A stretch of DNA of 34,690 nucleotides from Planctomycetota bacterium (GTDB lineage Bacteria > Planctomycetota > Planctomycetia > Gemmatales > Gemmataceae). Below are positions 5,082-31,988 of the stretch, piece after piece (the first letter of the stretch is position 1; each line of letters starts with the position of its first letter). The DNA lies in NCBI GenBank assembly GCA_016191165.1, contig JACPPF010000048.1, positions 1-34,690 on the forward strand. Direction: 5' to 3'. The notes beneath the pieces were generated by a model, which saw only the letters and a list, made by a program, of their open reading frames with translations, was not told the origin of the DNA and made no database searches. A program made the translations under genes and the position numbers.

Positions 5082-7079
5082 ATGCGAATGCCGCAACGAC
5101 CGCTGTTCTTGCTGATGGGCCTGAGTGCCATCTGCGTGCTGACTGGCGCGAGCGTGTACGGCCTTTATCAACGCGGTTGGCTGGTCGCGTCGAATCCTTC
5201 GGCAGTTCCCTCGTTGATTCACGCAAATCAAACCCCGGACAAGAACGCGATTGCCTTGATCCATGTCTATTGTGGCACGTGCCATCAAAGCGGGCGGTCC
5301 GGCGTCGATTTTGACGATACCACCCTTCCCCTGAACGTGATGCGCGGCGACCGTTCCACCTGGGAAATGGTTGTTGAAAAGCTGCGGGAAGGCAAGATGC
5401 CGCCCAAGAAATTTCCGCAGCCGTTGCCTGAAGAGCGAGCTTTTCTGATCCAATGGGTTGAAAATGTCGTGCTCAAGCAGGACATCAATTCACCCGCTGA
5501 CGGCCGACTGATGGCGCGCCGTCTGCAACAGACCGAATATGTCAACGCCATTCGCGACTTGCTCGGTTTTGCACCGGACGATCCTGGTGAATTGCCAAAC
5601 GACGAAAAGGCGTGGGGTCAGGTCAAGGGCGTGCCCGCGCTTCCGGCGGAGGAGTTGGCAACCTATCGTGCGGTTGCGCGTAAACTGTTGGACCAGGCCT
5701 TATCGACGGAATTCCTCGGGATTGACGCCGAAGCTGACGACGATTCCGAAGGGAATGCCGCCGCCGACCCGGAGAATCCAGGAACGCGGACCATGTTCTT
5801 CCGGGACTTCGGAGAGAAAACCAGCACCGAGGCGGCCCGCGAGGTCCTGGGTGATTTTGCCCGCCGCGCCTATCGCCGGCCGCTGGAGTCGAGTGAACTC
5901 GACCAGTTGATCGACGTTTTTGAAGCATCGGAAGCAGCCGGCGGCAGCTTTGACGAGGCCATCTACGATGCGCTCGAAGAAATCCTGACGTCTCCGAATT
6001 TCCTATATCGTGTCGAGGTTCGCCACGGCTCGGAAATGCCATTGGCGAATACCAAACGGGTCCAGCAACTGGAACTGGCGTCGCGCCTGTCGTTCTTCCT
6101 GTGGAAGAGCGTGCCCGACGAGCAGCTGCTTTCACTTGCCGAGCAAGGAACCCTGTCGGACAACCTCGAAAGCCAGGTCAAGAGGATGCTGCAAAGCCCA
6201 AAATCCCAGGCCATGGCCACGGACTTCACCGACGAATGGCTGAACCTGAAAAAACTGCCTGGCATGGCGGACCTCGACGATTCGCTTCGGACGGCGATGC
6301 GCCAGGAAACCCAGCTCTTGGTGAGCACCATTCTTCGCGAGAACCGCAGTCTGCTCGAATTCCTCGATGCTGACTACACGTTCCTCAATGAAAAGCTGGC
6401 AAACCACTATGGCATCAAGGATGTGGCCGGCGATGAGATGCGGAAGGTCTCGGTCAAGGGCACGCACCGCGGCGGGCTGGTGACGCACGGCAGCATCCAT
6501 GCGATCACCAGCAACGGCCTCGGCTCGTCGCCCGTGCAACGTGGGAAATGGGTGCTGGACAATCTGCTCGGCACCCCGCCCCCGCGCCCGCCCGCCGGCT
6601 TGCTGGAGGCCTTCAATAACGCACCCAAGGCCAACAACGGCGACACCAAACGCACCCAGATGGAAAAGCATCGCCAGGATCCGAACTGCGCCCAATGCCA
6701 CGTCAAGATGGACGCCATCGGTCTGGCCCTGGAAAATTTCGACGGCCTGGGCGCGTGGCGCACGGAGTGGAATACCCGCCCTGTCGATGCGTCCGGCATA
6801 CTGCCCGACGGCAAAACGATCCGGGGACCCGCGGAGCTCAAGACCTACCTTCGCGGACAACAGAGACTCTTTGCCAGGGCGCTCGCCCAGAAAATGCTCG
6901 GGTACGCTCTGGGTCGCAAATTGACGGCCGACGATCGCCCCGCCGTGGATCAGATCGCTCTACGGGTAACCCAGGGCGAATTCCAATCCTCCGCCCTGAT
7001 CCTGGAAGTCATCCGCAGCACGCCATTCCAAAACGGTTGGAACCTTGCCAGGGCCAGCTCCCCCAAGGTGGGCGGCTAA
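5082..7079 (+). CDS. Planctomycete-type cytochrome with DUF1587-DUF1595-DUF1592-DUF1588-DUF1585 domains
   Basis: The 665-aa protein starts with a hydrophobic N-terminal segment (residues 7-27) acting as signal or anchor. A PSCyt1-type CGTCH haem motif is at residues 64-68. The classical chain follows: DUF1587 (TEYVNAIRDLLG), DUF1595 (ARRAYRRPLE), DUF1592 (LASRLSFFLWKSVPDE), DUF1588 with a second haem motif CAQCH at 536-540, and DUF1585 at the C-terminus. This is a full-length member of a planctomycete and verrucomicrobial family thought to take part in periplasmic breakdown of complex organic matter; no enzymatic reaction is established. The family is usually paired with a DUF1552 gene, and none is adjacent here. 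An AAGGGATC stretch about 10 bases upstream supports the ATG. The stop lies 2 bases from the stop of the convergent kinase gene. Confidence 0.92.
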   Translation: MRMPQRPLFLLMGLSAICVLTGASVYGLYQRGWLVASNPSAVPSLIHANQTPDKNAIALIHVYCGTCHQSGRSGVDFDDTTLPLNVMRGDRSTWEMVVEKLREGKMPPKKFPQPLPEERAFLIQWVENVVLKQDINSPADGRLMARRLQQTEYVNAIRDLLGFAPDDPGELPNDEKAWGQVKGVPALPAEELATYRAVARKLLDQALSTEFLGIDAEADDDSEGNAAADPENPGTRTMFFRDFGEKTSTEAAREVLGDFARRAYRRPLESSELDQLIDVFEASEAAGGSFDEAIYDALEEILTSPNFLYRVEVRHGSEMPLANTKRVQQLELASRLSFFLWKSVPDEQLLSLAEQGTLSDNLESQVKRMLQSPKSQAMATDFTDEWLNLKKLPGMADLDDSLRTAMRQETQLLVSTILRENRSLLEFLDADYTFLNEKLANHYGIKDVAGDEMRKVSVKGTHRGGLVTHGSIHAITSNGLGSSPVQRGKWVLDNLLGTPPPRPPAGLLEAFNNAPKANNGDTKRTQMEKHRQDPNCAQCHVKMDAIGLALENFDGLGAWRTEWNTRPVDASGILPDGKTIRGPAELKTYLRGQQRLFARALAQKMLGYALGRKLTADDRPAVDQIALRVTQGEFQSSALILEVIRSTPFQNGWNLARASSPKVGG

Positions 7080-7081
7080 CC

Positions 7082-9658
7082 TCAATCCAGCGCCCTGCGA
7101 AGGGCTGCCATGTCGTGATTTGCCAGTCGCACTACGAATATCTGCCCATTCGCACCACCCGCCAAGATGTGTCGGCCGTCCGGCGCGAACGTGGCGCTGA
7201 AGGCGGCCCCGCGACCCAGGTTGATTGAACGTGTTGGCTGAAGAGTCCTCGCGTCCCGAACCACCAGCGCTGGCTCGACGCCGGCGGAAACGAACATTCG
7301 GCCATCCCTTGAGAATGCGAGGTCGTGTATCTGCTTTTGCGTTTGAAGCGTGGTTTTTTCTTTTAACGCCTTGCCATCCCAGGCGCAGACCTGCAAGGGG
7401 CCCTGCCACCCGCCAAGGATGACCAGGTTGCCCGAGGGTTGGCTTGCCAGCATGCGTTGACCAGGCGACCGGGTCGCGAACGTGCCGGCGGTGGCGTTGT
7501 TGACGCTTGCCCAGTGGAGAACGCGCGGCCATCCACCCCAGATAATCGCTGCGCCGTCGGGCGCGAACGCAAGCGTGGTGACGTTGGCAAACGGACTGCG
7601 GATGGCGCGCGACTCCAGTCCGGTCCTCGGGTCCCAGATGCGAATGAAGCCGTCGCGCCCCGCGGATGCCAGCAATTTGCCTTCCGGATGAAAGGCAAGC
7701 TGCGTGACTGGCCTTTGGTGTTTGTCGAACGACAGGATCCGGGTTCGGCGCTCGAGGTCCCAGACGCGCACGCTGCCGTCGTCGCTGGCACTGGCGAGCA
7801 GCCAGCCGTCAGGCGAGATGGCGACGCGGTTGACCCGCGCGCCGTGGGCCGGGATGTTGAACGGATGCAGCGGCGCCCCGAGATCGAAAACTCGCACGCC
7901 CGCTTCGTCCGGGCTTGCAAGCCAGCGCCCGCTTGAACTTACCGCGAGTGAAAGAACAGGCCGGGGCACGGACGGACGGGCGGGGTTAAACGCACCGATC
8001 ACCTCGGCGGGGGTCGGCGGCGCCAGCGCCTCGGCAAAGCTCTTGCGTTCCAGGCCATCCAGACGGGAGGGGATCCGCGCAAGCCATTCGTCGATCCCGC
8101 GGGTCCGGGCCGCGGTCGCAACGGCTGCGCGCTCGCGCATCACTTCTTCGCGGGCCTCCTCCCACGGAATCTGGTTTTGAATTGCCTTCCGGATGACCAG
8201 TTTCCAGTAGGGATCTTTGGCTGCCGGGTTTTGTGGCGCCGCCTCGGGTTCGCCAGGGGCAGCATGACTGCGACTCGAAAGGGCCAGGATCACGCCGAGC
8301 AGCGTGGCCAGCACCAGCACGGCCAATCCACCCAGGCAAGCCAGAAGCAGGGGCTGTTGGCCGGGGGAGTTCGTCGTTTTGCGGAATGGCCGATGCACCT
8401 GCGGCGCGATTGGTACGGTCGGCGGCGCCGCCAGCGTCACGGTCGTGGTCAGGGCGGCCGGGTCGGATTTCGACGCGCTTGCCGCCAGGTTTTGCAGGAT
8501 GTCTTGCAACGCGCCGGCCAATTCCATTGGCGTCTGAAAGCGGTCCGCCGGGTCCTTGGCCATTAGCTTCTGGAGCAACGACTCGACCGCCGGCGGAACA
8601 TGAACGCGTGCCTCGAATTCGCACGCATCGATTTTCCGCGCCGCCAGACTTGCCCGCCGAACTGCCTCAACCGGATCGGGCACGTCGAATTGATGTTGCA
8701 GCAGCTTGTCGGTGATGGTCCCGTCCGGAAAAGGAGGGCGCTCGGTCAACAAAAAATAGAGGGTGCAGCCCAGGCTGTAAAGATCGGCCCGGATGTCGCT
8801 GTTGTGCGAATCGCGCGCCTGTTCCGGAGCGATGTACTCTGGCGTGCCCATCAGGGTGTTGATCTTGGTCAGGTGGGTTGTCTCGCGGCCCGTGGCCGGA
8901 TCGCGCCAGCGCGCCAGGCCCATGTCGAGAATCTTGACGACTCCCCACGGGTATTGCTTCGCCAGGTCGCCGCGCGGGATCATGCCGCTGGACAGCCGGG
9001 GACGCGGAATCAAACCGCTCGAGCGGCGACGATCGCTGGCGATCGCCTGAGACATCAACAGGTTCGCCGGCTTGATGTCGCGATGAACCAGCCCGCGCTC
9101 GAACGCATGTTGCAGCCCCAGCGCCGCTTGCCGAATGTACTCGCACGCCTGATCGACCGCCAGCGGCCCTTTGTCCTTGACGAGCTTGGAAAGATCGACG
9201 CCATCGATGTACTCCATGGCGATGTAGTAGGCGCCGTTGACCTGATCGGCGTCATAAGCGCGGACAATGTGCGGATGGCTCAGCTGACCCGCGGCGCGGA
9301 TCTCGCGCTGAAAGCGCAGGATTACCTTGGGATTGCCGAGGCATTCCTTGCGCACCACCTTGAGGGCGACGATGCGTCCCAGGATTTTCTGCCGGGCCTT
9401 GAATATCTGCCCCATGCCGCCTTCACCTAAACGTTCGAGCACGACGTAGGGCCCGATCGTCAGGGCGTTGCCCTTGCCCTGAAAGGTCTGGTTGATCTGA
9501 TAGGCGGTAAGCCAGGCCCGGCGCAGCAGTTCCTGACCCAGCTCGCGCGCGTCGTGAACGCTCGTCTGGAGTCGGCGCACCTCTTCGCATTGCTCGGCAC
9601 TGAGGAGCTGGCTTTGAATCAGTCCATCCACGAATTTGGCGAGAGTCGCGGCCGCCAT
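7082..9658 (-). CDS. Membrane Ser/Thr protein kinase fused to an extracytoplasmic WD40 propeller
   Basis: An 858-aa Hanks-type kinase. A helical N-terminal segment (1-65) precedes the kinase domain (about 70-370): glycine loop GEGGMG 78-83, catalytic Lys100, HRD 192-194, DMG 245-247 in place of DFG, then GTPEYIAPE. A single membrane helix at about 415-440 leads to a linker and WD40 blades from about 565 to the end. This is a receptor-like layout with a cytoplasmic kinase and an outside sensor. Between HRDIKPANLL and DMG there is an extra segment of roughly 30 residues containing two related octads, RSSGLIPR and LSSGMIPR. I chose the ATG at 9658. The upstream in-frame TTG at 9709 overlaps a TATAGT at 9709-9714 that could be the -10, and neither start has a strong ribosome-binding site. 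Ligand and targets are unknown. Confidence 0.92.
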   Translation of the reverse strand: MAAATLAKFVDGLIQSQLLSAEQCEEVRRLQTSVHDARELGQELLRRAWLTAYQINQTFQGKGNALTIGPYVVLERLGEGGMGQIFKARQKILGRIVALKVVRKECLGNPKVILRFQREIRAAGQLSHPHIVRAYDADQVNGAYYIAMEYIDGVDLSKLVKDKGPLAVDQACEYIRQAALGLQHAFERGLVHRDIKPANLLMSQAIASDRRRSSGLIPRPRLSSGMIPRGDLAKQYPWGVVKILDMGLARWRDPATGRETTHLTKINTLMGTPEYIAPEQARDSHNSDIRADLYSLGCTLYFLLTERPPFPDGTITDKLLQHQFDVPDPVEAVRRASLAARKIDACEFEARVHVPPAVESLLQKLMAKDPADRFQTPMELAGALQDILQNLAASASKSDPAALTTTVTLAAPPTVPIAPQVHRPFRKTTNSPGQQPLLLACLGGLAVLVLATLLGVILALSSRSHAAPGEPEAAPQNPAAKDPYWKLVIRKAIQNQIPWEEAREEVMRERAAVATAARTRGIDEWLARIPSRLDGLERKSFAEALAPPTPAEVIGAFNPARPSVPRPVLSLAVSSSGRWLASPDEAGVRVFDLGAPLHPFNIPAHGARVNRVAISPDGWLLASASDDGSVRVWDLERRTRILSFDKHQRPVTQLAFHPEGKLLASAGRDGFIRIWDPRTGLESRAIRSPFANVTTLAFAPDGAAIIWGGWPRVLHWASVNNATAGTFATRSPGQRMLASQPSGNLVILGGWQGPLQVCAWDGKALKEKTTLQTQKQIHDLAFSRDGRMFVSAGVEPALVVRDARTLQPTRSINLGRGAAFSATFAPDGRHILAGGANGQIFVVRLANHDMAALRRALD

Positions 9659-9817
9659 GGTGGAACAAGCCCCGCAAGGGATAGTCGATGAAATTCCGGC
9701 TTGCTGCAACTATAGCTCACAATCCGCACAATCGGACTTTGAAACGTAATCGCTGATGTACATTTGAATCACTAGTGTTCTTGAACCGCGAAACTCATGG
9801 CGATTGAGTCAAGTTTG

Positions 9818-17501: not shown

Positions 17502-17687
17502 TTCCGGTGCCAGACCTTCCTGTTTCTGGCGCGGCCGTCCGGCGCGACGGGGTCCGTCACCGCTGCTTCCAGGTCGTCCGGGCGGCAGGAATTTCCCAAT
17601 CCATTTCATTGGCATAACTTCCCTTTTCGGAATCTTGTGTCATAATTGAGCGGCCCATGTCGTGCGCCCGATTCAGGAGTCGTGTTG

Positions 17688-19037
17688 ATGAAGTCGATCC
17701 CCATCTCGACGAAGTCACCTCCCCGGTCCGGCGAGGCCAAGTCGCACAGCAAGGTCGTCTGGCGAAATGAGCCCGATGACACGCCCACGACGCCCATTCG
17801 CGATCACATCCCCACGCCGGTCTTAACCGCCGAACAGCCGAGCGCGGCATTGCCTACGATCCCCGGTTATGATCTCATCGAGATTCTCGGCCAGGGCGGC
17901 ATGGGCATCGTCTACAAAGCGTTTGATAAGAGCCTCCAGCGTTATGTCGCCATCAAGATGCTGCACGGCGCCGCGCTTCCCGAGCAGGAAAAGGCGGACC
18001 GCTTTCTCGCGGAGGCACAGGCGATCGCCCAACTTCGGCACCCGAATGTCGTGCAGGTCCATGAAATCGGCGCCTGGGCCGGGCAACCGTATTTCGTCAT
18101 GGAATGGATCGACGGCGAAAACCTGGCGACTCACGCAGCCAGCCATCGGAAAACCTGTCGGCGGGCCGCTCAACTCGTGGGGGTGCTGGCGGAGGCGATG
18201 GAGGCGGTTCACCAGGCCGGGATTGTCCATCGCGATTTGAAACCGGCGAACGTGCTGATTGGGCGCGACGGAACGGTCAAGATCACGGACTTCGGGCTGG
18301 TCAAGCGGCTGGACCGGGTTGGCGGTGCCACGCACACGCAGGTCGTGATGGGGACGCCGTCGTACATGGCGCCGGAGTACATTGAGGGGCATCGCAAATC
18401 GGTGTCGCCCGCCCTTGACATCTACGCCCTGGGCGCGATCCTCTTTGAGTTGTTGACGGGCCAGCCGCCGTTCCACGCGGAAACGCCGATGGCGACGCTG
18501 TACCAGGCGGTGCATCATCCGGTGGCGGCGCCGTCGCGGCTGAACGTCATGGTGCCAGGGCCGCTCGAGGCGATTGTGCTGAAGTGTCTGCGTAAGGATC
18601 CGCGGGAGCGTTATCATTCGGCAGCCGATTTCGCTTCCGACCTGCGCGCGTTTCTCGACGGCGATCCCGTGGAGGCCGAGCAGGTTTCGGGGTGGCCAGG
18701 AATGAGCCCGGGCCGGCGCGCGGCTGCGTTGGTGGCTGCCGGGTTGGCGGTGGTGGCGCCCGCACTGATCCTGGTGACGGGCGTGGTTCTGTGGGCGGCG
18801 CCGTTCCCGTGGATGGCGGAAATCTGGAATGGGAACAACGCCGCCAATGCGAAAGCGCAGCCTGCGCCCCTGGAGAAGAAAGGCCCGCGGCCGGTGCCAA
18901 ATAATGGCCAGGACGATCGACCCTGGGATGGGGCGGACGGTCTGGAATTCGATGGCCCGCCGCCGAAATGGAAGCCGGGCCCGCCTCCGCCCAAGCACTT
19001 CGGTCCGTTCTACAAGAAGAAGAAAGGGCCGCCTTGA
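17688..19037 (+). CDS. Membrane-anchored Ser/Thr protein kinase (Hanks type)
   Basis: A 449-aa protein. After a disordered N-terminal region (1-55), the kinase domain has GQGGMG at 68-73, Lys90, HRDLKPAN from 181, DFG at 201-203, GTPSYMAPE and the usual C-lobe (about 60-325). All catalytic residues are present, so it should be active. A membrane helix at about 345-373 is followed by a short tail rich in Pro and Lys with PPPKWKPGPPPPK near the end, which would lie outside the cytoplasm and lacks a sensor domain. The chosen ATG follows CAGGAGT about 8 bases upstream; the in-frame TTG at 17646 is less likely. The upstream gap holds only a weak CATAAT at 17641. It is convergent with the PQQ-propeller gene. 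Confidence 0.93.
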   Translation: MKSIPISTKSPPRSGEAKSHSKVVWRNEPDDTPTTPIRDHIPTPVLTAEQPSAALPTIPGYDLIEILGQGGMGIVYKAFDKSLQRYVAIKMLHGAALPEQEKADRFLAEAQAIAQLRHPNVVQVHEIGAWAGQPYFVMEWIDGENLATHAASHRKTCRRAAQLVGVLAEAMEAVHQAGIVHRDLKPANVLIGRDGTVKITDFGLVKRLDRVGGATHTQVVMGTPSYMAPEYIEGHRKSVSPALDIYALGAILFELLTGQPPFHAETPMATLYQAVHHPVAAPSRLNVMVPGPLEAIVLKCLRKDPRERYHSAADFASDLRAFLDGDPVEAEQVSGWPGMSPGRRAAALVAAGLAVVAPALILVTGVVLWAAPFPWMAEIWNGNNAANAKAQPAPLEKKGPRPVPNNGQDDRPWDGADGLEFDGPPPKWKPGPPPPKHFGPFYKKKKGPP

Positions 19038-19120: not shown

Positions 19121-20767
19121 TCAGCGCTGGGGGAGTTTCCAACAGGCGATCTCGCTCTGGTTGCGGACGAACAGTTGATCGCCGGCAAGGGCCGGCGTGT
19201 TCCATGTCTTCCATTTCTTTTGGCCCGTGCCCAGCATTTGCTGACGCGCCAGTTCGGTGTCGCTTGCCGAGTCCTTGTCTAGGAGCGTGACGACCCCTTT
19301 TTCGTGAACGACGAGCAGGGTGTCGCCGGCCAGCAACATCTGCCCGGGCCCGCAGCGTTCGCCGCGCCACACCACATCGCCGCTGATGGCGTCGAGACAG
19401 CGCAACTGCCCGGCCAGGCCGTGCAGGCCGAAGATGCGTTTGCCATCGCTGACGGGATTGGCGAAGCGGGCGGCCAGGTTCTTGTTTTTCCAGACCACGT
19501 CCACGCTCCATGCTGGTTGGGAATTTTTCTTATGAGCGATGCGGAGCATGGCGCAGCCGTTGGCGAGTTCCGAGGAAATGAAAACGCGGCCGTCGCTCAG
19601 AACGACGGGTTGGATGCTGTTCATGTCGAAGTCGGTCTTCCAGGGGAAACTCCAGAGTTCTTGCCGGGAGTCCGGATCGTAGCCGACCAGACCATCGCCG
19701 TCAAACAGAAGGATTTGTGTCACGCCAGCCAGCGTGGCGAGTTGCGGGGAGCTATAACCAGCGCGGCGATTGCCGATGGCCCAGGCTTTCTTGCCCGTTT
19801 TTTGTTCGAAGGCCACGAGGGCGGCGCCGGCGGGGTTTTCGGGATCCACGCCGGCATGGGCGATGACCAGATCCTTGAAGATCAACGGCGAACCGGTCAT
19901 GCCCCATTTGATGTTCTTGGCCTTGCTGTCTTCGAGGATGTTGACGCCCCATTTCTTTTTTCCCTCGACATCGAGGCAGAGGAATTCACCGGTTGCGCCG
20001 AGGGTAAAGATGCGCCCATCGTGAATGGTCGGCGTCGAGCGCGGTCCGTTACCCATGATGTCCCTGTGGAAGGCGTCGTAAGCGAACACCCAGCGTTCCG
20101 AGCCGGTTGTGCGGTCGTAGCACACCACGCCTTCTTGCTTGCCGCGCTGCTCGAGCGTGACGACGAGATTTCCAGCCACCGCGATGCCGCTGTACCCGTC
20201 GAAACACGGGCGTTGCCAAACTTGTTTGGGCGAATGCGTGGTCCAGTCGGTTTGCAGTTTGGCGTCGGGAAGAACGCCGTCGCGATTTGGGCCGCGATAG
20301 CCTGGGAAATCGTTCGGGCCCACGACGGCAACCACCACGTCGTTGACGCCTACCGGATGCTGGGCCTGATATTCGGCATAGCGATCTTGATCCGTGGTCT
20401 CCCAGACGAAATGAAAGATTGGCCTGAGCCCCGTCGGCGTGGACGTGAGTTCGACCTGGGTCAGCGACAAGGCGAACGCGCCAATTCCTACGGCCAACAG
20501 TCCCAAAGCCGCAAAGCGCGTCAGCCAGCTAAAGCCCGAGAAGAAAAGCCACCAGATCCCCAGGGCCAGTACGCCGAGGATCACGCCGGGCTGGAGGACC
20601 ATGAGAACTGGGATGGCGGCTTCGGTATCGAGTTCCATCGCTTCCATCACCGGGCCTGCCGCCGCGATGCATGTGATGACGACGAAAACGATGATCGGAA
20701 AAAGAAATCGTCTGAGAAGCGAACGCGCCGCCTGAGGCTGGGCGTTTGAATTCGATGCGTTGGACAT
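19121..20767 (-). CDS. Membrane-anchored PQQ-like beta-propeller protein
   Basis: A 548-aa protein. Three hydrophobic segments at about 20-38, 53-76 and 80-100 anchor it. From about residue 130 there is an outer-cell propeller of the PQQ type, with repeats such as RTTGSERWVFAYD, DVEGKKKWGV, QKTGKKAWAIG and AISGDVVWRG, and a start segment NDFPGYRGPNRDGV typical of planctomycete PQQ-repeat proteins. Dehydrogenase catalytic motifs were not seen, so it is probably a binding or scaffold propeller. The ATG at 20767 (MSNASNSN) has GGAG and AGGA upstream; a longer reading to 20860 would translate repeat DNA. It lies 287 bases after the 2418-aa gene on the same strand, so it may be the last gene of that block or have its own promoter. 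Confidence 0.88.
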   Translation of the reverse strand: MSNASNSNAQPQAARSLLRRFLFPIIVFVVITCIAAAGPVMEAMELDTEAAIPVLMVLQPGVILGVLALGIWWLFFSGFSWLTRFAALGLLAVGIGAFALSLTQVELTSTPTGLRPIFHFVWETTDQDRYAEYQAQHPVGVNDVVVAVVGPNDFPGYRGPNRDGVLPDAKLQTDWTTHSPKQVWQRPCFDGYSGIAVAGNLVVTLEQRGKQEGVVCYDRTTGSERWVFAYDAFHRDIMGNGPRSTPTIHDGRIFTLGATGEFLCLDVEGKKKWGVNILEDSKAKNIKWGMTGSPLIFKDLVIAHAGVDPENPAGAALVAFEQKTGKKAWAIGNRRAGYSSPQLATLAGVTQILLFDGDGLVGYDPDSRQELWSFPWKTDFDMNSIQPVVLSDGRVFISSELANGCAMLRIAHKKNSQPAWSVDVVWKNKNLAARFANPVSDGKRIFGLHGLAGQLRCLDAISGDVVWRGERCGPGQMLLAGDTLLVVHEKGVVTLLDKDSASDTELARQQMLGTGQKKWKTWNTPALAGDQLFVRNQSEIACWKLPQR

Positions 20768-20850
20768 GTCCTGATCTCCAAGTTTGAATGCCGGTAGGCG
20801 CATGGGACGGCGCAGGATTGACAGGCCCGACGCAATTCGCTTGCCGAGTC

Positions 20851-20901
20851 GGAAGCGCAAGCGGCGGGCAGGTAAAAACCCTCACTTACGCTTCCGGCGC
20901 G
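20851..20901. repeat. Degenerate palindromic repeat (CGGAAGCG-AAG family)
   Basis: CGGAAGCGCAAGCGGCGGG on the left and CCCTCACTTACGCTTCCG on the right form an imperfect inverted repeat. It looks like a decayed member of the group best seen at 9818-9889; another partial copy (CTTCGCTCACGCTTCGGG) lies at 19079-19097. It occupies the gap between the 2418-aa gene and the PQQ-propeller gene. Confidence 0.45.
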
Positions 20902-21054: not shown

Positions 21055-24000
21055 TCAGCGTTGGGATGGCTCCGGCGGATGGCTAGTGGTATCGTCGGAT
21101 CCGCCAGAAGCAACGCCTTTTGCGCGGCCCGCTGTTTGCCGCCTGACGAAGCGGGCGAACCCGATGCCGCGCAGCACCAGCAACGCGGTGGTCAGGAGAA
21201 TGCCGACCAGGCTCCAGTTGAAAAGGATCATGGCTGCCACGATTGAGCCAAGGGCGAGTTCGGGCGCGAGGGCGCGCAGGATCGGCCAACCGTGCCGGAA
21301 GTAAGAAAGGACGAGCACCGTGACCATGCCGAGCAATACCCATTCGGTCCAGGTGCGCCGGCTGGCGGCGACGCGCTCGGCGGCGAGATGCAATTTCGCA
21401 CTGGCCATGCCCTGGGGCAGATTCCAGGGTTCGGCGAGCGGTTCAGGTTCGCCGATCGAAAAGCCGGCGCGGCGCGGCGCGGCGAGTTTCAAGGCAGCCT
21501 GGCGCTCGGTGTCGAAGCGCAGCGCCTTCGCAGCCGTGGTGTTTTTTCGCTCCACGTCGTGAATGCGTTTTTCCCAATCCTCAAGGTCGATTCCAATCGG
21601 GTTCAGCCGTGCCAGGGCCAGGGCATACCGGGCATGTTGAACGCATGCGTTCAGCAGCCGCTGTCGATGGGCGAGCAGGATCGACAGCGCCGCCGGCCGC
21701 GGTGTCGCCTCGGCCAACGCCTTCGATATTTGCAGGTGAAGGTCGGCTTCTTGAAGCAGGCTGGCAAACCAGGTCGGTCTGCGCGCTGCGTCCGTCCTGG
21801 CGAGATAACTTCCAGGCGGAACCCAAAGCCAACGCTTGTGAGGCGTCACGCGCGCCTGGTCAATTGTCAACGGCATGAGATTCGGCAAATCCGCTCGTTC
21901 CGCCGCGCCGGCATAACGCCAGCGCAGGTGAAGACGCCGCGGCTCCGCCTGTCCGCCCGCCTTGAGTGTGACTTCCCGATTGTCCAGGGTCCACGCGGCG
22001 TAAGGGCGGCCATCGAGGAAGACGCTGATCGACTCGAGCGCGGCGGGGAACTTGACGCGCAGCTCCGCCGAATCCGGAGCGTGAAACCAGAGGACCGCCT
22101 CGCGCAACCACGGCGGCCCGCCAGCTACGCGAATCTCCTCCGAGGCGCCCAGAATCCGCACCAGCGCGCGCGGCGCCACCTTCAGAAACGCAACACTCAT
22201 CGGCGCCTCGATGCTCCGGGCCAGTTTCCACTGCGCGCGATCTGGATGCCATTGCGCGAATGAGCCCGGCAGGGACGCTTCGAGCGCCGGTTGGTCGAGC
22301 AGCTTTTCGCGCTGGTTCGCCTGGAATAGTTCCACGTTTTTCCACGCGATCCAGGAATCCTCCAGAATGGCGCCTTGCAAGCTCACGACCGGAAGCTGCA
22401 TGGAAGGAAGGTTGGCCGGACTGATTTGACCACGAAGGAACAGAAACACTTCCTCGGGCTGCCCGGGAGGAAACTGGAGCGACCAGACCCAGCCACTGCC
22501 GGTCTTATCGGAGAACTTCTGAATGGCAGCGCCCGGCGCCGCAAGCGTGGGAGCGTCGCCGACCCAGTGTTTGACACCAAGTTTGAGGGGAGGCAGGGCG
22601 CCGCGACGCGTCCTGAGGCGAATGGCGTGATGGATATCAAACCCACCCTCGATGCCTTGAACCTTGGTCAACATCGATCCTTTCGGCTGGCGCACCCGTG
22701 GAACCAGCCGGAGGATCACCTGGTGATTCGGTTCGATGACAGCGAAGCCAAGACGGTCGCCCACGCTGGCGCGCAGCCCGCGCGTCTTTTCAACCCGGGC
22801 TTCCACGTCCCCCGCGGTGCGGATTTCCAGCGTTGAATCTTGCAGGCGCGTGTCAAGGGGGTAAACGCCGGGGAGCGCAAAGACCTTGCCGAGCGGTTGT
22901 TTGGCCGCGGGGTTGCGCCAGCCCTTCAGGGTGATGACGGTTTGCCGTTGTGCTTGGCGGAGCCAGACCTGCAAGAGTCCATCCTGTCGTTGCCAGCGGT
23001 AAACATCCGGTCCGGTCACGTCGGCCAGGGTGAGCGCCGCGTCGAGCGCGAATTCCGCCAGGATCAGGTCCTCCTGGGCGCTGCGGAAAGTGAAGGCGCC
23101 GGTAAACTCGCAACAGCTCGAATCAACTCGCCAAAGAAGGTCGGCTTGCGCCTGGCGGGCGATCGGCACGACTTCGAGCCTCAGCCCCGCCTGCTGTCCC
23201 CGCCGTTCGAAGGCGTAACCGCGCGAAGCCGCCGGGATCGGCAGGCGCGTCGATTGGCTCCATTGCTTTTGAAACTCGGCCGCCGATAGAATGCGAATGA
23301 TCCCGAGGTTTGGCGCTGCCGGTGTGTCCTTCTCCGGGACGTCAAGCCGATAACCCAGCAGCCCCGCCACCGATTTTCCCTGCACCGGCGCCGGCAGCGA
23401 CAGCAGAAGCTGCGTTGCTTTGCCGAATCCGCGGGGCACGAATTCCAGGTGCAGAGAGATTTTTCCGGCGACGGGCTGGACAAAGTCCACCGCCAGCTGG
23501 CGTTGAGCGCCTTTTTCCAGAATGCTCCATTGCTTGATGAGGATCGGAGCTGACGGCGCCACGAGCGGCGGTGTCAAAGTGGCTTCAACCGATCGCACGC
23601 TCACGCCATCCGGCAACGTCACGCTCAGGCGCGACAGGGCGCTTTTGCCAAGGGTGTATTTCAGGGCACTGAAAAGAGCCACCGATCCTGGACGCAGGTC
23701 CCAAAAGTGAGCTTCCTGGACCTCAATGGAATTGCCGACCGTCGGAGCGCCCGGCCCAGCCCAGCGCAGGTTGAATGCGCCGACGTAGCCAAGGCGACCC
23801 CGCCAGCTCTTCGAGAGTTGTTTAGAGTCCAGGGAAAGACTCTCCTCTCCCAGGCATTTGTCGCAGTAGACGTTCTTGGCAGGGATTTTCCATTCCAGCG
23901 CAAACTCGGTTTGCGGCAATTTTGGAATCTTGAAGGCAAGTTCATTCAAGTCGCTCGCGGCGGCAACCCGGGCGGTGAACGACAGGCGAAGACGATGGAC

Positions 24001-27000
24001 CCCTGGTTTTCGAATGGGCAGGGCATAGCCAAACCTGTGCGGCACGGGAAACACCGGGGCGCCGTCCAGGAAGGCGTCGCCCTGAAGTTGCACCCCGCTC
24101 AAGGGAATCAGAAGTTTCGCCTGTTCCTTCAGGCAATATATCTCGTAATCAACGTCGAATTTCGCGAAGCCGTCGTGAATGACGCCGGCATACGAGGCGC
24201 CGATCAGGAAGGTTCCCTGGGTGATCGGGTTGGCCCGTGCCTCCAGGTCAGCCAATTTGGCGAGCAACTCCGGCGAGACCAGCACCGCCGGTTTTGGCCC
24301 GTTGATGACCAGGACGGTGTTGGGGCGCGGCGCCGCGGGCTGGCCAAGCACGTCCCAGCTGATGCCGAAAAAAAACGCCACGGCCACCGCGGCCGCGCCG
24401 ACCACGCGAATGATCGAGGAGTTAGCTTGATCGGCCTTTTCGCGCCGTTCCAGGAAAAGGCGCAGGACATTCCAGAGCAGGCTGCCAAGAGCCACGGCAT
24501 TACTCGGCCAAGCAAAAAAATCGCTCGCGGGTCCGGGAAGCCAGACCGCGACGAGAATCCCCCCGGCGATCAACACCAGATGGACGCGAAATGCCGACGT
24601 CACCGAGCAGGCCCGGTGGATTCTCCAGAACCCGAACCCCGCCAAAAAAGCCAGCGCCCAGCCCAGCGTGCGCGCTGACGTCGGGTCCACGACCAGGAAA
24701 CTCGGCGTTTTCGCCCCGACCGCCAGGGTGGCCCATTCGGTCCGCCCGCGAAAGCCGTCGAACATACCGAGGCCTGGCGTATCGTTCGACCCAATCAACT
24801 CGTCGCCGTTGCCGAATTCCGCCCACACGGGAACCAAACAAAAATCCGAAGCTGGGTCGCGCCCTTGACGAACCGCTTCCTGCACGGCCTGGCCCAGTTG
24901 TTCGGCGTCGGTTGCGTCGGTAATCCCCCAGCGCCGAAGTCGATCCGGCGAAGTCAACAGCGCGCCGCCCGGACAAGGAACATAAACCAGGCCAAGCCCT
25001 TCCCAGAATGGACGAGCGGTTTGAGGACCAAGCATGGCCCGGGGCAAAAGCGTTTCCGGTGCGAGCCCGAGGGCACGGAACGCCTGCGGATCAATCACCA
25101 CCGCGACGGTATCCTTCAGTTGCATGACGGCGAGGCGATCGAGCGCTTCGGAAAGCTTCAGCGGCTTCTCGGCCTTGTCGCGCAACTCTTTTTCCGCGGC
25201 AAGGACATTTTGTTTTTGTTCGTCCAACGCTTTCCGGAGCCGGGCGCGTTCGCCCAGGGGCCACCACTCTTGTCCCCAGTTCCAAACCTGCCGCACGCGC
25301 CGTAGGGCCGGGCTTTGACTGGCAAGTCGATACGGTTCGCCGACGGGCGCCACGACGTCATGAGCAAGCGGCGTGAGATGGCCCTCCAAAAACAGGCGAG
25401 CGCGCGGATCTTGCGGGGCAACTGGCCAAACGACCACGGGCGTCTCGATTCGCATCATCCCAGGCAAAAAGGTTGCCTGGGCCTTCGACTTGGCCAGGAC
25501 CTCATAACGAACGGACTTTTCATTTTGATCATACGGCAAGGCCAGGCGAACCTGCGCGCCAGCCGGCGTGGCGTCAAAACGTGGCAGCGTTTGGCCGTTC
25601 AAGCTGACGGAAACCACGCGAAGATGCGCTGGCAGGTGCAGGTCGCACGTCCGTTCGCGCCAGTTCCACAAGCGAAACTCAATGCGGTGAAATGTGACGC
25701 CGTCCCGGGCAACATGAGTTGAAATCCGAGCGGCGTCGCACCTCTCCAGCGCCGAGATCATGTTCTTCTCGGCGCGGGTGCTGACCAGAATCCTGGATCC
25801 CGGCTCGATAGCCCCATCGGCAAATTGAATGCTCTGACTCGGCCCCAACCCTGCCGCGGGCCTGATCTCAACTGGATTCAGCCAGGCGCGTCGCTCTTTC
25901 CGGGCGGCGACGATGGGCGCGGAAGTCGTGTCGACGACCATTTCCTGCCGGACGTTCTCACGCTGTACCGGAACCATGAGGGGAAGCAGCCAGGTCTTGT
26001 CGCCGGGGGAAACGGGCAACATGGGAGCTACCAACGCCGAGCCAACGCACTCCCAGGGAAACGCGCTCGGAAGCCGCACCGAGAGCCGGTGCAAGTCGCC
26101 GTCAACCAGGCCGGGTGGGGCCATGGCTTCGAGTGCGAGCGTTGTCTTGGCTTGCAGTGGCCGAGAAAAGTGAAACCGCCAGCACTCACCCTCGGGCAGC
26201 AACGAGTCGAGCGTCGCCGCTTCCCATGGGTTTTTGCAACCCAGGCGCATCAGGTGGGGAAGCGCCTCGTTGAGGAACAAACGTTCCCAGTGGTGAACCG
26301 GAGCCGTTTCCTCGCCGATGACCTTCCAGGACCTGGGGAAACCAGGAGCGAACTGAAAATCGACATGCTCCGGCGCGCCGAGCAGGGGTTTCACTTCCCA
26401 GCGAAATCGCATCAAGGCGCCCTGTTCCATGAGCGTTATCCGGTGTTTGCCCTGGAATTGCACCTGGACCGCCCGAGGAACCAGGCGAATGTTCGCGCTG
26501 AGCCGTTGATTGCAATAGCGGAACCGGAAGCTCGGCGGTTTGAGGGTGGACGATTTTCCACCAGCGTCTTCCGGGACAACCGGGAGCGATGATTTCAGGA
26601 GTCGCGCCTCGAGAATTGGATCGACGAATACCTCGACGGCGCCCTGGCGAGTCTTCGCATCGAGCCAATCCATCTCTGGAAACGCCAGGGTCCGAGGGCC
26701 CGACGCCATGCCCGGAAGATTCGAACGAAATTCGATCTTGACGACGGCGGAATTCAGCGGCGCCAGGGGCTTGCCGAGTTCGACGATCAAGAACCCGCCT
26801 TCAACGCGCCAATCGCGCAACATATCAGGCGGCTGCATGGCAAGAGATTCAATCTGATAACGGGGAACCACGGTGGGCAACTTGGCGCGCAGTTCAAAGA
26901 CGTTGCTGCGCGATGTCGTGCAGGCGATTTCCGCTTCCAGACGCATCCCACGCGGCGTCAGATGCCAGCGGACCAATTCGCGCGTGTGCAGGTCCGCTTT

Positions 27001-28311
27001 CTTGTCGAACAGGACGAGACCTGGCCGCCTCGTTGACGCGACGTCCGCGGCCGTGTCGGCAAGTGTCAGGCTTTGCATGCCCTTCACCATTTGGCTCATG
27101 GTGAACTGGAACGTTCCATGATCCCATCGGCCCAGAGCCAGGTCTGGATGAAGTTTCAACGCCAGTGTTTCGCCGCGCCGAATGGCGCCAACGACGTGAA
27201 GGCCCGGGCTGGTCCACATCCCGGATGCGGGTTTGGACGCCAGGCTGCTGATGTGCAGGCCGGTTAACTTCCCCTGGACAGGTCGATGAAAGCGAATGGT
27301 CAGCCGCCCCTGAGCCGGAGCGGCTGGCTTGCCCTTGGCCGTTTTTTTAACCGGGAGTTCCGTCCAGGTAAAGTTCTTGACCTCGCCGCTCTTCAAGACG
27401 ACGTCGAAGGGTTGCAGGGCGGCGTCGCCGATCAGGTTCAACTCGCGTACGCTGCCGTGGAGGATGCTGATATCGAATTCGTGTTCGACCTCAAGTCGAT
27501 CGGGCATCAGATGCTGTTCGCTGTGGGTGTGGGTGAACAAGGTGGGTGGGGCGCCTTTGCCGTCCACGATTTTTCGGACCACGAACTGAATGGGACTGGC
27601 GCCGACCGCTTGCAGCCGCCACTTGCGTTTTCCCGGCACGCCCTCGTCGTGCGGGCCCGTCACCAGCGCGGATTCCTTACTGAGGAGAAGCCAGACGTCA
27701 GCGGGTAGATCCAATTCGAATGTGTTGATCGTACAGGGCGGCACCAGCAGTTGAAACGCCATCCCATCATTGGTCGGCGTCCCGCGGGCGCTCCAATCGA
27801 ATCGGCACACCTTGTGGCCAGGTTTGACGAGCAGTCCAAGCGTTTGGCCATCCGGCTCGCCCAGGATCCCCGGCGTGCCTTGATCCCAGCGCAGTCCGCT
27901 CAGCGCCAGGCTGAGCGGCGCGATCGGGAGAACCGAATCCGTTTCGCCCGGGAAGTCGATGGTCCAGGACCCCTGTCCTCGCGCCAGGGAGCGGTCGATC
28001 AATTCAGCCTGATAATGAGCCCGGGTCAATCTGGGGCTTTTTTCAGTTCTTTGTGCGGCCTGGCGCGTTCGCTTGAGCCGGGCCTCGAAGTCCGCCAGCG
28101 GCGTCAGGATCAAGACGCCTTGCTGAACCTTCTCAAGTTCCATCGCCGCCCGTTCGGGTGGGATGATTCGCCATTGAATCGGCAGCGCGGCGCTCGGGCC
28201 CGCCGGTTGCGCCAGCAGCGCCGAGCCCGCCCAGGTCACGGACAGGACCAGAGCAATTCGCAGAACTGCCAGCGATCCCATGGACCAGACTCGGCCAACC
28301 GATGAAATCAC
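21055..28311 (-). CDS. Giant envelope protein, 2418 aa, two-module architecture with central and C-terminal membrane helices (unknown family)
   Basis: I do not recognise a family. From the GTG at 28311 (AAGGCGAGG upstream) the N-terminus holds a signal peptide, whose core begins at an alternative ATG, residue 11. Residues 40-1200 are an extracellular-type, beta-rich region. Four hydrophobic helices follow at about 1210-1322. Residues 1330-2300 are a second beta-rich region, and a helical hairpin plus membrane helices (about 2320-2390) precede a polar tail. Both halves begin with a similar strand (GVLILTP at 65-71, AVLVSP near 1340), then a domain of about 80 residues containing a KPGxH motif (residues 163-166 and near 1440). 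A CDKC pair lies near 1483-1486. The 1160-aa upstream gene has the same opening and ending, so this looks like a duplication or fusion of one such module. It is probably a large periplasmic or surface scaffold. Confidence 0.85.
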
Positions 28312-28426
28312 GCCTGCCTCGCCTTGATACGAAAAAAAAGCTTGGACCCATCACGATTTGCAAGGCAAGGGCGCGCGGCGCATTTGCCCATCCGTCGCTG
28401 CCGCCTCCGCCGGGGGGCGATCGAAT

Positions 28427-31400
28427 TCAGCCACCCGCTGGCGACTCGCTTGCCTTTTCACTCATGGCGCTCGCGGACTGATCGGGCTCATCCACGGTCG
28501 AGGCCTCGCGCGGCCGCTTCGCCGATTTGGTTCGCATCATCGTCGAACCCGGCTTGCCCCGGCTGAAGCCTGAATGGAATACCATTTGTCGACGCTCCCT
28601 TTCCTCAAGCAGCCAATGCCCGACCGCGAAGAGGGCAAACAACAGCACGCCAGGCTGGAGGCCATATAGCACCGGCGGCATGATGGTTGGCAACAGGACG
28701 CCCAGCGTCAAGACGGACAGAGCAAAAGTCAAGACGAGCAGCCAAAACGCCACGCGTGGCAAAGGCGAATAGTAGGCGCCCAGGGAAAAAACCAAAAACA
28801 GTCCGGAGCAAACCAGCAACCAGCCTTCGCGTGGCAAGTGGTAAATCGTCTCGGGGCGAAGACTGATTTCCGAGAACGCAAAGCCGGTTCCCGGCGCCGT
28901 TGGCCAGGGTTCCACGGCGCCAACCCAGGCCTCAAGTTCGCCGCTGGCCAGATGGGTTTCCGGCGTCAGCAGGCCGTTTTGCCAGTTCCATTGTGGATTC
29001 AGCCGGGCAGGGCGGCCGAATACCGCGGCGAGCATGACGTCGGGCGCCGTCCAATGCCAGCGCATCTCCAGAATCTCGACCTTGGACCGAAAGGTCGGCG
29101 CATGCATCGTCGTACGCCAGAATCGGTTCGTCTCCATGTTCTCGGCTGGAATCGTATACCGGATTTCCAGTACGGCCGGAAGCTTGATCAACTCCGGGTG
29201 TAGGCGAACGCGAACCACCTTTCCGGCAGCGTCGATTTTCTCGAACGGGTCCAGGCACTGCTTCCCAAGCCAAAACGTCGGTCCATCCCGCAACAGCGGC
29301 GCCGGCACGGGCAACTCGATGTCAACGTGCGAAGCGTGAATCTTGCTGAGCAAATAGAAAGCCCGGCACTGCTGACTTTGGTTCTCCAACATGCGGGCCT
29401 GAATCAAGGCGCGATCGGCGATAAAAACCGCGGGCGGTGCGATTGTGGTTTCCGTCAACTTCACGGAAAGCGACAGCACGGCGCCGAAGCCTTGCAGCAC
29501 CAGGGTGGGGAACTGTTCCTTGCCCGGGATCTTTTCAATGCTGCGTTCTTTCCACTCCCCTTGCTTGACGAGACCGTCGTCGAGGCTGACGGTGACGCCC
29601 GGCGCCGACCAGAGGCGAACCTTGACGTCGAGGCGCGATGCCGTGGCGGGCGCCACCGGAACCAAATGCAACCTGTTTTGAACAATCGCCAGGTCGAATC
29701 GGAGCCTCAATTCGATGAACTTGCCATCGATCTCGGGACGAACCCACAGGCGGTTGGCCACCGGATCGTGCTTGATCTTCGTCCCGCCGGAAACGACCTC
29801 GATGTTTGCAAGCCCCGCTGGCAGGTTCAGGAGCAGGTCGGGAACGCCGGCCTCGCCCTTGTCCCCAACGGCTTCGCGGGCAAGCCGAACCAACTGGCGG
29901 ACCTCGGCTGTATGCTTGTGCAACAGGATATCGACGGTCCCGTCGCTGATGACTCGCTGTCGATAAGGCCGCCAGGCCAGGTCCAGGGCGGCGGGTGTCT
30001 GTTCCCAGGCAAAATCAAAAACGTGGGGATCCGGCGTCGGCTCTTCCATGCCAAACGGGCCTTGCATCAACTCGATCTGCTTGCCCGTGTGGACCGCCGC
30101 CCTGGCGCCGCGGTCCAGCGTGTTCAGCGGGCGAGGCAACTCCAGGCGGACCCGCTGGTTATACGGCGGAACTCGGTAGGTAGTCTTCAGGATCAGCGTC
30201 ATTTGCTTGATCGGGCTGGACTGATCCCGATTGAGAAAAATGCGCGTCTTGCCCTTTGCGTCCGGATTGCCGACCTTGAGCGGGGTTCCTTGCTCCTCGA
30301 GGAACACAAACTCGTCTGGGCTCGCATGGGTCCAGGGCATGCCGTAGGTCGCCCAGACACTGGACCACGGTAGCGTGCCAGGGAATTCCAGCCCGGACGC
30401 TATGCTCCCGATCAGGGAAACCCCGCGCAACCGGGGTGTGGGCATCTGTAAGTCGATGAACTGGATTCCCGTGAAAAGCGTCTTGACCTGGATCTTACTG
30501 GTCGCTTCGATGTCCCAGCCGTGGCTGCCCGCTTGCAGACGCAGCGCGTGGCTAACCTTGGTTTCCAGCTGATTTTTTTCCGGGCGCCATTCCAGTTCCA
30601 AAGGCGCCTTCGCCACCTGAGGTGTCTTGAGGTTTTTCTCGGTAACCGGCGGCGCGACGAAGGTAAACGTCGCAGCCGATTCGGTGTTCGTTTCCTGGTA
30701 GACCTCGCCAAAGCGCGTGATGACCGGGCGCTGGCCGAAGCGCGTATTCACGGCAAACGATCCCCGATGCTGGAATGCTCCCAAAACGTGGAACGGCCCG
30801 ACCGGAACCTTGGCGCTCAAGTTGGCGCGCGGCACCTGCAACGAAAAGGAAACCTGAAGGCGCTTGGTTGTCGCCGGCGCGTTAAGGCTAAAATACGGCT
30901 TGCCCTTCTCGGGTGGCGTGAGCGCCACGGTGAGACCCCCGGGCGCCGTCACCTTCTCGATCTTCGTCTGCGCCGGCAGCGCCAGACGCCATTCGGTGGT
31001 TTGCCCGCGCACGTCCTCCAGAATGATTTCACCGCTGATGCCGACATGCGTGTCGTACACATCCGCGCGGATTTTGCTCTCCGCCTTGGGTAAAGGCGTG
31101 TTGCCCGAAAACGAAACCGGCTCGCTCCACAACAGCGTGACCGTTTTTGCCTGGCCCAGACCCAATTTCCAGCGCCCGGGCGTGCGCGATTTTTCCAGCG
31201 TATCGTTCCAGATCAATTCCTTGACATTGCCCGGCAAGTCAAGCGTCATCGGAGTTTCCGAGCCAGGCAAATCCAGCCTCGCAACCCGCTCGTAGGCGCC
31301 ACTCGAGGTCTTTCGCACCAACGCGGGGACACGAAACTTCAGCGTCAAATGGTGTTGAAGGCCCGGTTTCTCCACGCGGACGAACAAGCCTTCCTTCTCC

Positions 31401-31909
31401 CTTAAATCGAAAATCGGCGTCTCGCCGTCCAGTTTTCCCTCGTCCGTCAAGTAACAACCTTTCAAGCCGAGGTAGATGGCCGTGTTGGGCTCTTCCGTGA
31501 AGAAGTCGAAATCCGCGGTGAAGACGAGAAAGTCGCCGTCCAGCCGGCCAGCCAACCTGCACAGCCCAGGGATTTTCCGCTCGACCTTCTTGTCCAGAGC
31601 CTTGATACGCTCCTGTTGCGCCAGCCAGACCTGGAGGTCAACCAGGGCCGAACTCGGAAGCAACTCGCGCGCCTTAAGCAGGTCCTCGACAACGACGATG
31701 ATGGCATCAGGCGGCAGGTTCATCTTGTCGAGCGGGATGCGAATCCTGGGAGCATCTTTGCCGTTCTTGTCAGATGCTTTATTATTCGACTTGCCAGGCT
31801 CGCCTTTGCCCGCCTTCGCTTTCTTGTCGGGTTGAGCGGGACCTTGAGCAAGTGCGGTCAGCGCGAAGCAGCAAAGCGCAGCGGCGAGGAATGATAGGGT
31901 TCGCAGCAT
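28427..31909 (-). CDS. Large envelope protein, 1160 aa, single-module paralogue of the 2418-aa protein (unknown family)
   Basis: No named family is recognised. A signal peptide (1-21) is followed by a Lys-rich linker (27-53), a strand-helix motif (DAIIVVVEDLLKARELLP, 68-85) and a beta-rich domain at 118-198 with LDGETPIF and VEKPGLQHHL. A long run of probable beta-sandwich segments extends to about residue 1015. Three or four membrane helices at about 1022-1095 precede a basic, then Ser-rich cytoplasmic tail (about 60 residues). Order and spacing match each half of the 2418-aa protein encoded 115 bases downstream on the same strand, so the two are probably cotranscribed and act together in the envelope. 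The ATG at 31909 is the only start that keeps the signal peptide intact. No enzyme motif was found. Confidence 0.87.
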   Translation of the reverse strand: MLRTLSFLAAALCCFALTALAQGPAQPDKKAKAGKGEPGKSNNKASDKNGKDAPRIRIPLDKMNLPPDAIIVVVEDLLKARELLPSSALVDLQVWLAQQERIKALDKKVERKIPGLCRLAGRLDGDFLVFTADFDFFTEEPNTAIYLGLKGCYLTDEGKLDGETPIFDLREKEGLFVRVEKPGLQHHLTLKFRVPALVRKTSSGAYERVARLDLPGSETPMTLDLPGNVKELIWNDTLEKSRTPGRWKLGLGQAKTVTLLWSEPVSFSGNTPLPKAESKIRADVYDTHVGISGEIILEDVRGQTTEWRLALPAQTKIEKVTAPGGLTVALTPPEKGKPYFSLNAPATTKRLQVSFSLQVPRANLSAKVPVGPFHVLGAFQHRGSFAVNTRFGQRPVITRFGEVYQETNTESAATFTFVAPPVTEKNLKTPQVAKAPLELEWRPEKNQLETKVSHALRLQAGSHGWDIEATSKIQVKTLFTGIQFIDLQMPTPRLRGVSLIGSIASGLEFPGTLPWSSVWATYGMPWTHASPDEFVFLEEQGTPLKVGNPDAKGKTRIFLNRDQSSPIKQMTLILKTTYRVPPYNQRVRLELPRPLNTLDRGARAAVHTGKQIELMQGPFGMEEPTPDPHVFDFAWEQTPAALDLAWRPYRQRVISDGTVDILLHKHTAEVRQLVRLAREAVGDKGEAGVPDLLLNLPAGLANIEVVSGGTKIKHDPVANRLWVRPEIDGKFIELRLRFDLAIVQNRLHLVPVAPATASRLDVKVRLWSAPGVTVSLDDGLVKQGEWKERSIEKIPGKEQFPTLVLQGFGAVLSLSVKLTETTIAPPAVFIADRALIQARMLENQSQQCRAFYLLSKIHASHVDIELPVPAPLLRDGPTFWLGKQCLDPFEKIDAAGKVVRVRLHPELIKLPAVLEIRYTIPAENMETNRFWRTTMHAPTFRSKVEILEMRWHWTAPDVMLAAVFGRPARLNPQWNWQNGLLTPETHLASGELEAWVGAVEPWPTAPGTGFAFSEISLRPETIYHLPREGWLLVCSGLFLVFSLGAYYSPLPRVAFWLLVLTFALSVLTLGVLLPTIMPPVLYGLQPGVLLFALFAVGHWLLEERERRQMVFHSGFSRGKPGSTMMRTKSAKRPREASTVDEPDQSASAMSEKASESPAGG

Positions 31910-31982: not shown

Positions 31983-31988
31983 ATTATA
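31983..31988 (-). promoter_or_regulatory. Probable -10 element (TATAAT) of the giant-protein block
   Basis: On the minus strand a perfect TATAAT lies 73 bases before the ATG of the 1160-aa gene, in the 270-base divergent gap. The -35 region is poor: TTGGGG is 22 bases away, too far for a standard promoter. It may be an activator- or alternative-sigma-dependent promoter. No comparable element was seen for the divergent WD40 gene at 32180. Confidence 0.45.

Follow-up and report, generated by a model that had tools for sequence, protein, structure and literature searches.

Ost1 (ribophorin I, PF04597), part of the oligosaccharyltransferase of eukaryotes, TACK and Asgard archaea, is built from two tandem luminal domains that resemble the N-domain of M1 aminopeptidases (M1N), placed ahead of a single C-terminal transmembrane anchor. 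OST1 has been reported only in these three groups (PMC11417166), and a search for the non-catalytic OST subunits in prokaryotes yielded no convincing homologues (PMC4973528). The M1N domain itself, a saddle-like β fold of about 150–200 residues, is catalogued as PF17900 in M1 aminopeptidases and LTA4 hydrolase. Long tandem β-sandwich ectodomains likewise occur in integrin α chains and in α2-macroglobulin and complement proteins. Here we compare these systems with a pair of very large planctomycete genes whose domain fold is known and whose architecture and system are without description in the literature we searched; that search, covering mostly open-access papers, also returned no account of the protein family.

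The window is a stretch of 34,690 nucleotides, contig JACPPF010000048.1 of a Planctomycetota bacterium of the family Gemmataceae (assembly GCA_016191165.1). Two consecutive genes are encoded on its minus strand: P0002 (28427..31909), called as an open reading frame of 1160 residues with an ATG start, and P0001 (21055..28311), which encodes 2418 residues from a GTG start, with an ATG at codon 11. They are separated by 115 bp, in agreement with the initial annotation, which had taken the clean frames as a sign of selection. Stop-free full-length frames recur in relatives at identities from 54% down to below 20%, which places the pair of frames far beyond chance. The perfect TATAAT named upstream is also present (31983..31988, minus strand; read directly from the sequence), 74 bp ahead of the P0002 ATG within a 270-bp divergent intergenic region. 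A search for a −35/−10 pair on the minus strand found none, so that it is weak promoter evidence.

Beyond the intergenic region, a 635-residue protein with many WD40 repeats is encoded divergently from P0002 (32180–34087, plus strand). On the other side, 194 bp downstream of P0001 and on the same strand, lies a gene for a PQQ/BamB-like β-propeller protein (19121–20860, minus strand). Several members of the genus have an S9 peptidase in its place, so the propeller protein is not a conserved partner. Elsewhere the window encodes two Ser/Thr protein kinases, one with fused WD40 repeats (7082–9709, minus strand; 17646–19037, plus strand), and a planctomycete PSD/PSCyt (DUF1592/1588/1585) cytochrome-type protein (5082–7079, plus strand).

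Comparison of family alignments with hhalign revealed that the two genes encode three homologous modules: A, which is P0002, and B and C, the first and second halves of P0001. Pairwise alignments among the three span 768–817 columns (99.9%, E 1e-32 to 1e-35), and BLASTP relates P0002 to the second half of P0001 (C) at E 2e-5. Each module comprises about 1.1 kaa and consists of a signal sequence, five β repeats and a three-helix membrane bundle. The description of two giant proteins encoded by neighbouring genes is thus correct as regards their adjacency and conservation, but the proteins are related, since one module occurs in them three times. In two other families (genomes G117 and G069), B and C are encoded by separate neighbouring genes, and P0001 is accordingly best interpreted as two module genes that have fused. 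In a module tree, whose deep branches are long, each of A, B and C groups on its own within the window's class, and the triplication therefore predates the class.

The predicted topology is a signal peptide, periplasmic repeats, three transmembrane helices and a short cytoplasmic tail. Module A begins with a hydrophobic signal segment (residues 1–21, 31847..31909, minus strand; a helix over residues 2–21 in the model), and has a bundle of three transmembrane helices at residues 1027–1110 (28580..28831, minus strand). In the predicted cytoplasmic tail of A (28430..28579, minus strand) a basic stretch is followed by a motif that is conserved in the window's family as LPGFxR...SS...R...STVDAP and reads SGFSR...ASTVDEP here. 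Module C ends in its own transmembrane bundle (21142..21351, minus strand) with a conserved PE[QL] motif, here APEL. The signal-like N-termini and C-terminal membrane helices described earlier for both proteins are therefore present, and the predicted topology supports the envelope location. What had been overlooked is a membrane cluster in the middle of P0001 (residues ~1209–1320, 24352..24687, minus strand), which hydropathy reveals in addition to that at the end; here three helices close module B and one more follows, and this fourth helix looks like a retained signal sequence of C.

Giant size and tandem β domains are features of bacterial adhesins, and the proteins share both. They could in principle be surface adhesins or outer-layer proteins of the giant planctomycete exoprotein kind. 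Yet each module has a three-helix anchor with basic flanks, and the cytoplasmic tail is conserved, as expected of an inner-membrane protein. Moreover, within the genus the proteins hardly vary in length and each genome has a single orthologous locus, whereas adhesins are variable. We consider an adhesin very unlikely.

The repeats were defined by cutting the three family alignments into fifteen segments. Among the 105 possible pairs of repeat profiles, 60 match at E<1e-3, as against none of 105 in a reversed-profile control. AlphaFold2 models were built for the whole of A (mean pLDDT 77.8) and for residues 28–1227 of B (78.9), and each displays five β domains with long hairpins. Their pTM values of 0.36 and 0.37 are low, so that single domains are usable, whereas the models do not show how the domains are arranged or how long and far-reaching the arms are.

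At the level of single domains, VIA-align matched repeats A1, A4, A5, B1 and B2 to the N-domain of M1 aminopeptidases and LTA4 hydrolase (Z ~9.4–11.2, rmsd 3.1–4.3, 140–163 residues aligned), and all five show the saddle-like M1N fold. Repeat A1 (residues 109–264, 31118..31585) aligns with 1z1w (Z 11.1, rmsd 3.8, 142 residues), A4 (residues 651–822, 29444..29959) with the LTA4 hydrolase N-domain 3ftu (Z 10.7, rmsd 4.0, 156 residues) and A5 (residues 823–1026, 28832..29443; model range 825–1025) with 2xpz (Z 10.7, rmsd 3.3, 155 residues). Repeat A2 (residues 266–441, 30587..31114) is similar in profile to other repeats, and A3 spans residues 442–650 (29960..30586). Repeats B1–B5 are taken from the model (residues ~87–992, 25336..28053); B1 matches LTA4H 5ni2 (Z 11.2) and B2 matches ERAP1 3qnf (Z 9.7). 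They are followed by a modelled helical and α/β region specific to B (residues ~993–1205, 24697..25335), and C1–C5 (residues ~1359–2199, 21715..24237) are placed by profile similarity only. All these segments lie on the minus strand. A planctomycete M1N sequence profile hits repeat B3 at E 1e-5 and the other repeats weakly. In the models, then, the repeats of A and B have a recognisable M1N/Ost1-like fold, and the remaining repeats are linked to them by profile similarity only. The long β-rich regions of the initial annotation thus resolve into five β domains per module, with a fold that can be named after all. Structure prediction and profile comparison, proposed there as a check, revealed shared folds and repeats across the pair (A and B by model, C by profile). 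The architecture of 5+5+5 domains with three 3-TM bundles is well supported by computation.

The match to the M1 N-domain raises the idea that the proteins are inactive or divergent M1 peptidases. However, the HExxH zinc motif is absent from both P0001 and P0002 (no HE..H), the models contain no catalytic thermolysin-like domain, and none of 33 A and 28 B members matches a Pfam peptidase family, so this identity was rejected and we regard it as extremely improbable. Unlike M1 aminopeptidases, the modules carry their domains in a tandem array without a peptidase domain. PF17900 gave no match at the locus or in the window's genome (G000) at E<=1e-8, and none in A or B members. In the genomes of the genus (G000–G006) PF17900 is likewise without a match at this threshold, though several members of the family have one. 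The invariant columns of the family alignments are W, G and P only, which together with the missing HExxH argues against an enzyme.

The earlier view that the proteins belong to no recognised family is borne out by the searches: P0001 and P0002 have no convincing match in Pfam, NCBIfam or PADLOC and no meaningful sequence match in the PDB, and the clear homology to a characterised family that would speak against novelty did not appear in Pfam, NCBIfam or PDB. The PADLOC models for anti-phage defence matched 0 families. PDB sequence matches at E>=0.7 were discarded as noise, and the weak, mostly isolated Pfam hits of individual A proteins (TrpP, Hemotin and others) were put down to chance.

Ost1 is the described protein that comes closest. 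For both modelled modules it heads the Foldseek results (E 2.8e-9 and 4.4e-8), and VIA-align superimposes two adjacent repeats on its two luminal domains (Z 11.4 and 12.2) with an rmsd of ~19 that is consistent with hinge differences. For A3–A4 (Z 11.4) the rmsd of 19.7 over 300 residues reflects an altered inter-domain angle. By comparison, integrin α and α2-macroglobulin/complement chains are found by Foldseek at E 1e-5 to 1e-7, but TM-scores of 0.06–0.17 and rmsd above 20 indicate general β-array similarity only.

A bacterial counterpart of ribophorin I would place the arms at the translocon or at a membrane glycosyltransferase, where they would hold on to exported polypeptides as these are modified or fold. 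The structural matches suit this idea, the topology of luminal arms with a C-terminal membrane anchor is alike, and in one genome (G052) the gene immediately upstream of A encodes a PMT-type glycosyltransferase. That neighbour is a single isolated case, though, and the M1N fold is common to unrelated proteins. The modules also differ from Ost1 in build, with five domains and three transmembrane helices in each of three modules instead of two domains and one helix. Identity is 11–13%, and PF04597 has no match in the window's genome at E<=1, nor among the 33 A and 28 B members. By the tests made (PF04597, HExxH, PF17900), the proteins fall outside both Ribophorin_I and the M1 peptidases, and a ribophorin-like role seems quite unlikely to us.

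Of the six other genomes of the genus, five have both genes and the sixth is 74% complete. In a wider survey with family profiles, 201 of 248 genomes of the class (185 of 222 good ones) have module B, and 84 of 294 genomes sampled from the whole of Planctomycetota have module A, a count that is probably a lower bound given that few candidates per genome were scored. A search of plasmids gave no match. The pair is therefore present across the phylum and not absent from relatives, which the initial annotation had left to such a survey. Its proposal of one operon also gains from the comparison: in all 80 fetched loci with at least two module genes, A lies upstream of B-C on one strand, and 4-bp overlaps between module genes are frequent. 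Some genomes lack A or have shortened B-C genes (1.5–1.6 kaa), which indicates that some arms are dispensable.

No neighbour outside the module genes is kept throughout the fetched loci. As candidate partners, S9 peptidase (9 loci), inositol monophosphatase (9) and DUF488 (4) recur in subsets only and were set aside. In family f4, several genomes contain an additional A>B-C locus (L124, L126, L128, L130, L133, L134 and L136) with a longer B-C of about 2.6–2.7 kaa. The modules of the additional loci that were tested (L130 and L133) cluster with modules of genomes that lie outside the class, so that two versions of the system are found in one cell.

A link to gene regulation emerges in seven other families (f17, f23, f58, f63, f71, f73 and f90), where operons of an ECF sigma factor and an anti-sigma/vWA protein continue into (A) and B-C. 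In 12 loci of these families the anti-sigma/vWA gene is directly upstream of the module genes, often overlapping them, and a sigma factor gene precedes it wherever the contig extends that far. The vWA proteins carry vWF_A-VWA-YfbK_C domains, with an N-terminal zinc-finger anti-sigma domain (zf-HC2) detectable in several cases. Genome G229 has a 4-bp overlap at every junction of its sigma/vWA/module operon. Locus L184 (1–10569) runs from the ECF sigma factor through zf-HC2/vWA/YfbK_C and A to a B-C truncated by the end of the contig, and each of its junctions overlaps by 4 bp. In f63, f71 and G197, B-C directly follows the vWA gene and no A was recognised. In G086 a divergent sigma factor and a zf-HC2/VIT/vWA gene adjoin A; at L163 (1416–7539), an ECF sigma factor and a 1855-residue zf-HC2/VIT/vWA protein are encoded divergently from A.

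These operons allow the modules to be read as purely sensory ectodomains of an ECF sigma/anti-sigma pathway without a structural role, which in the window's class would act on an unlinked regulator. The recurrent, often overlapping linkage is what one would expect, as is B-C following the vWA gene where A was not recognised. Against it, sigma/vWA genes adjacent to modules are absent from the window and were not seen in its class, the large class that holds it, and the window's own genome has vWA matches that are generic and unlinked only. Fifteen large domains also seem extravagant for a sensor. A purely signalling role is thus unlikely, though less so than an Ost1-like one. The pattern suggests that the link either is ancestral or has recurred, and that it is missing at this locus, where a sensing role may therefore not apply.

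As a set, the modules probably form a non-enzymatic envelope scaffold or receptor, a function that we infer. The reading we favour, with chances we put at about even, is that of three membrane-anchored, non-enzymatic periplasmic arms acting as scaffold and receptor, coupled to an ECF sigma factor in some lineages. A signal sequence would direct the export of each arm, with its roughly five tandem M1N/Ost1-like domains, and a three-helix bundle would anchor it in the inner membrane, while B and C would be joined through the retained signal-anchor. While module identity, repeats, the fold of A and B, topology, synteny and operon context come directly from the computation, assembly, reach, partners and sensing are what we infer from it. 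The three arms may associate in the membrane as one complex and extend into or across the wide planctomycete periplasm, and their repeats may offer repeated binding surfaces for envelope partners. In the sigma-linked families the arms could engage the vWA domain, which the anti-sigma protein carries on its external side, and thereby couple the state of the envelope to release of the sigma factor.

A bolder version, possible but doubtful in our view, is a near-universal planctomycete machine of three Ost1-like arms, with fifteen M1N-like domains, that would span the periplasm, be of a type without description in other bacteria, and either keep the distinctive envelope of planctomycetes together or handle exported proteins in the manner of ribophorin I. 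The tie to an ECF sigma pathway in several families makes the role genetically testable. The arrays extend a ribophorin-I-like fold, in long tandem form, to bacteria, for which published searches had come up without Ost1. The 11-kb pair is retained by most genomes of the class, recurs across the phylum and has no entry in Pfam or NCBIfam, and is a strong candidate for a component of the unexplained planctomycete envelope.
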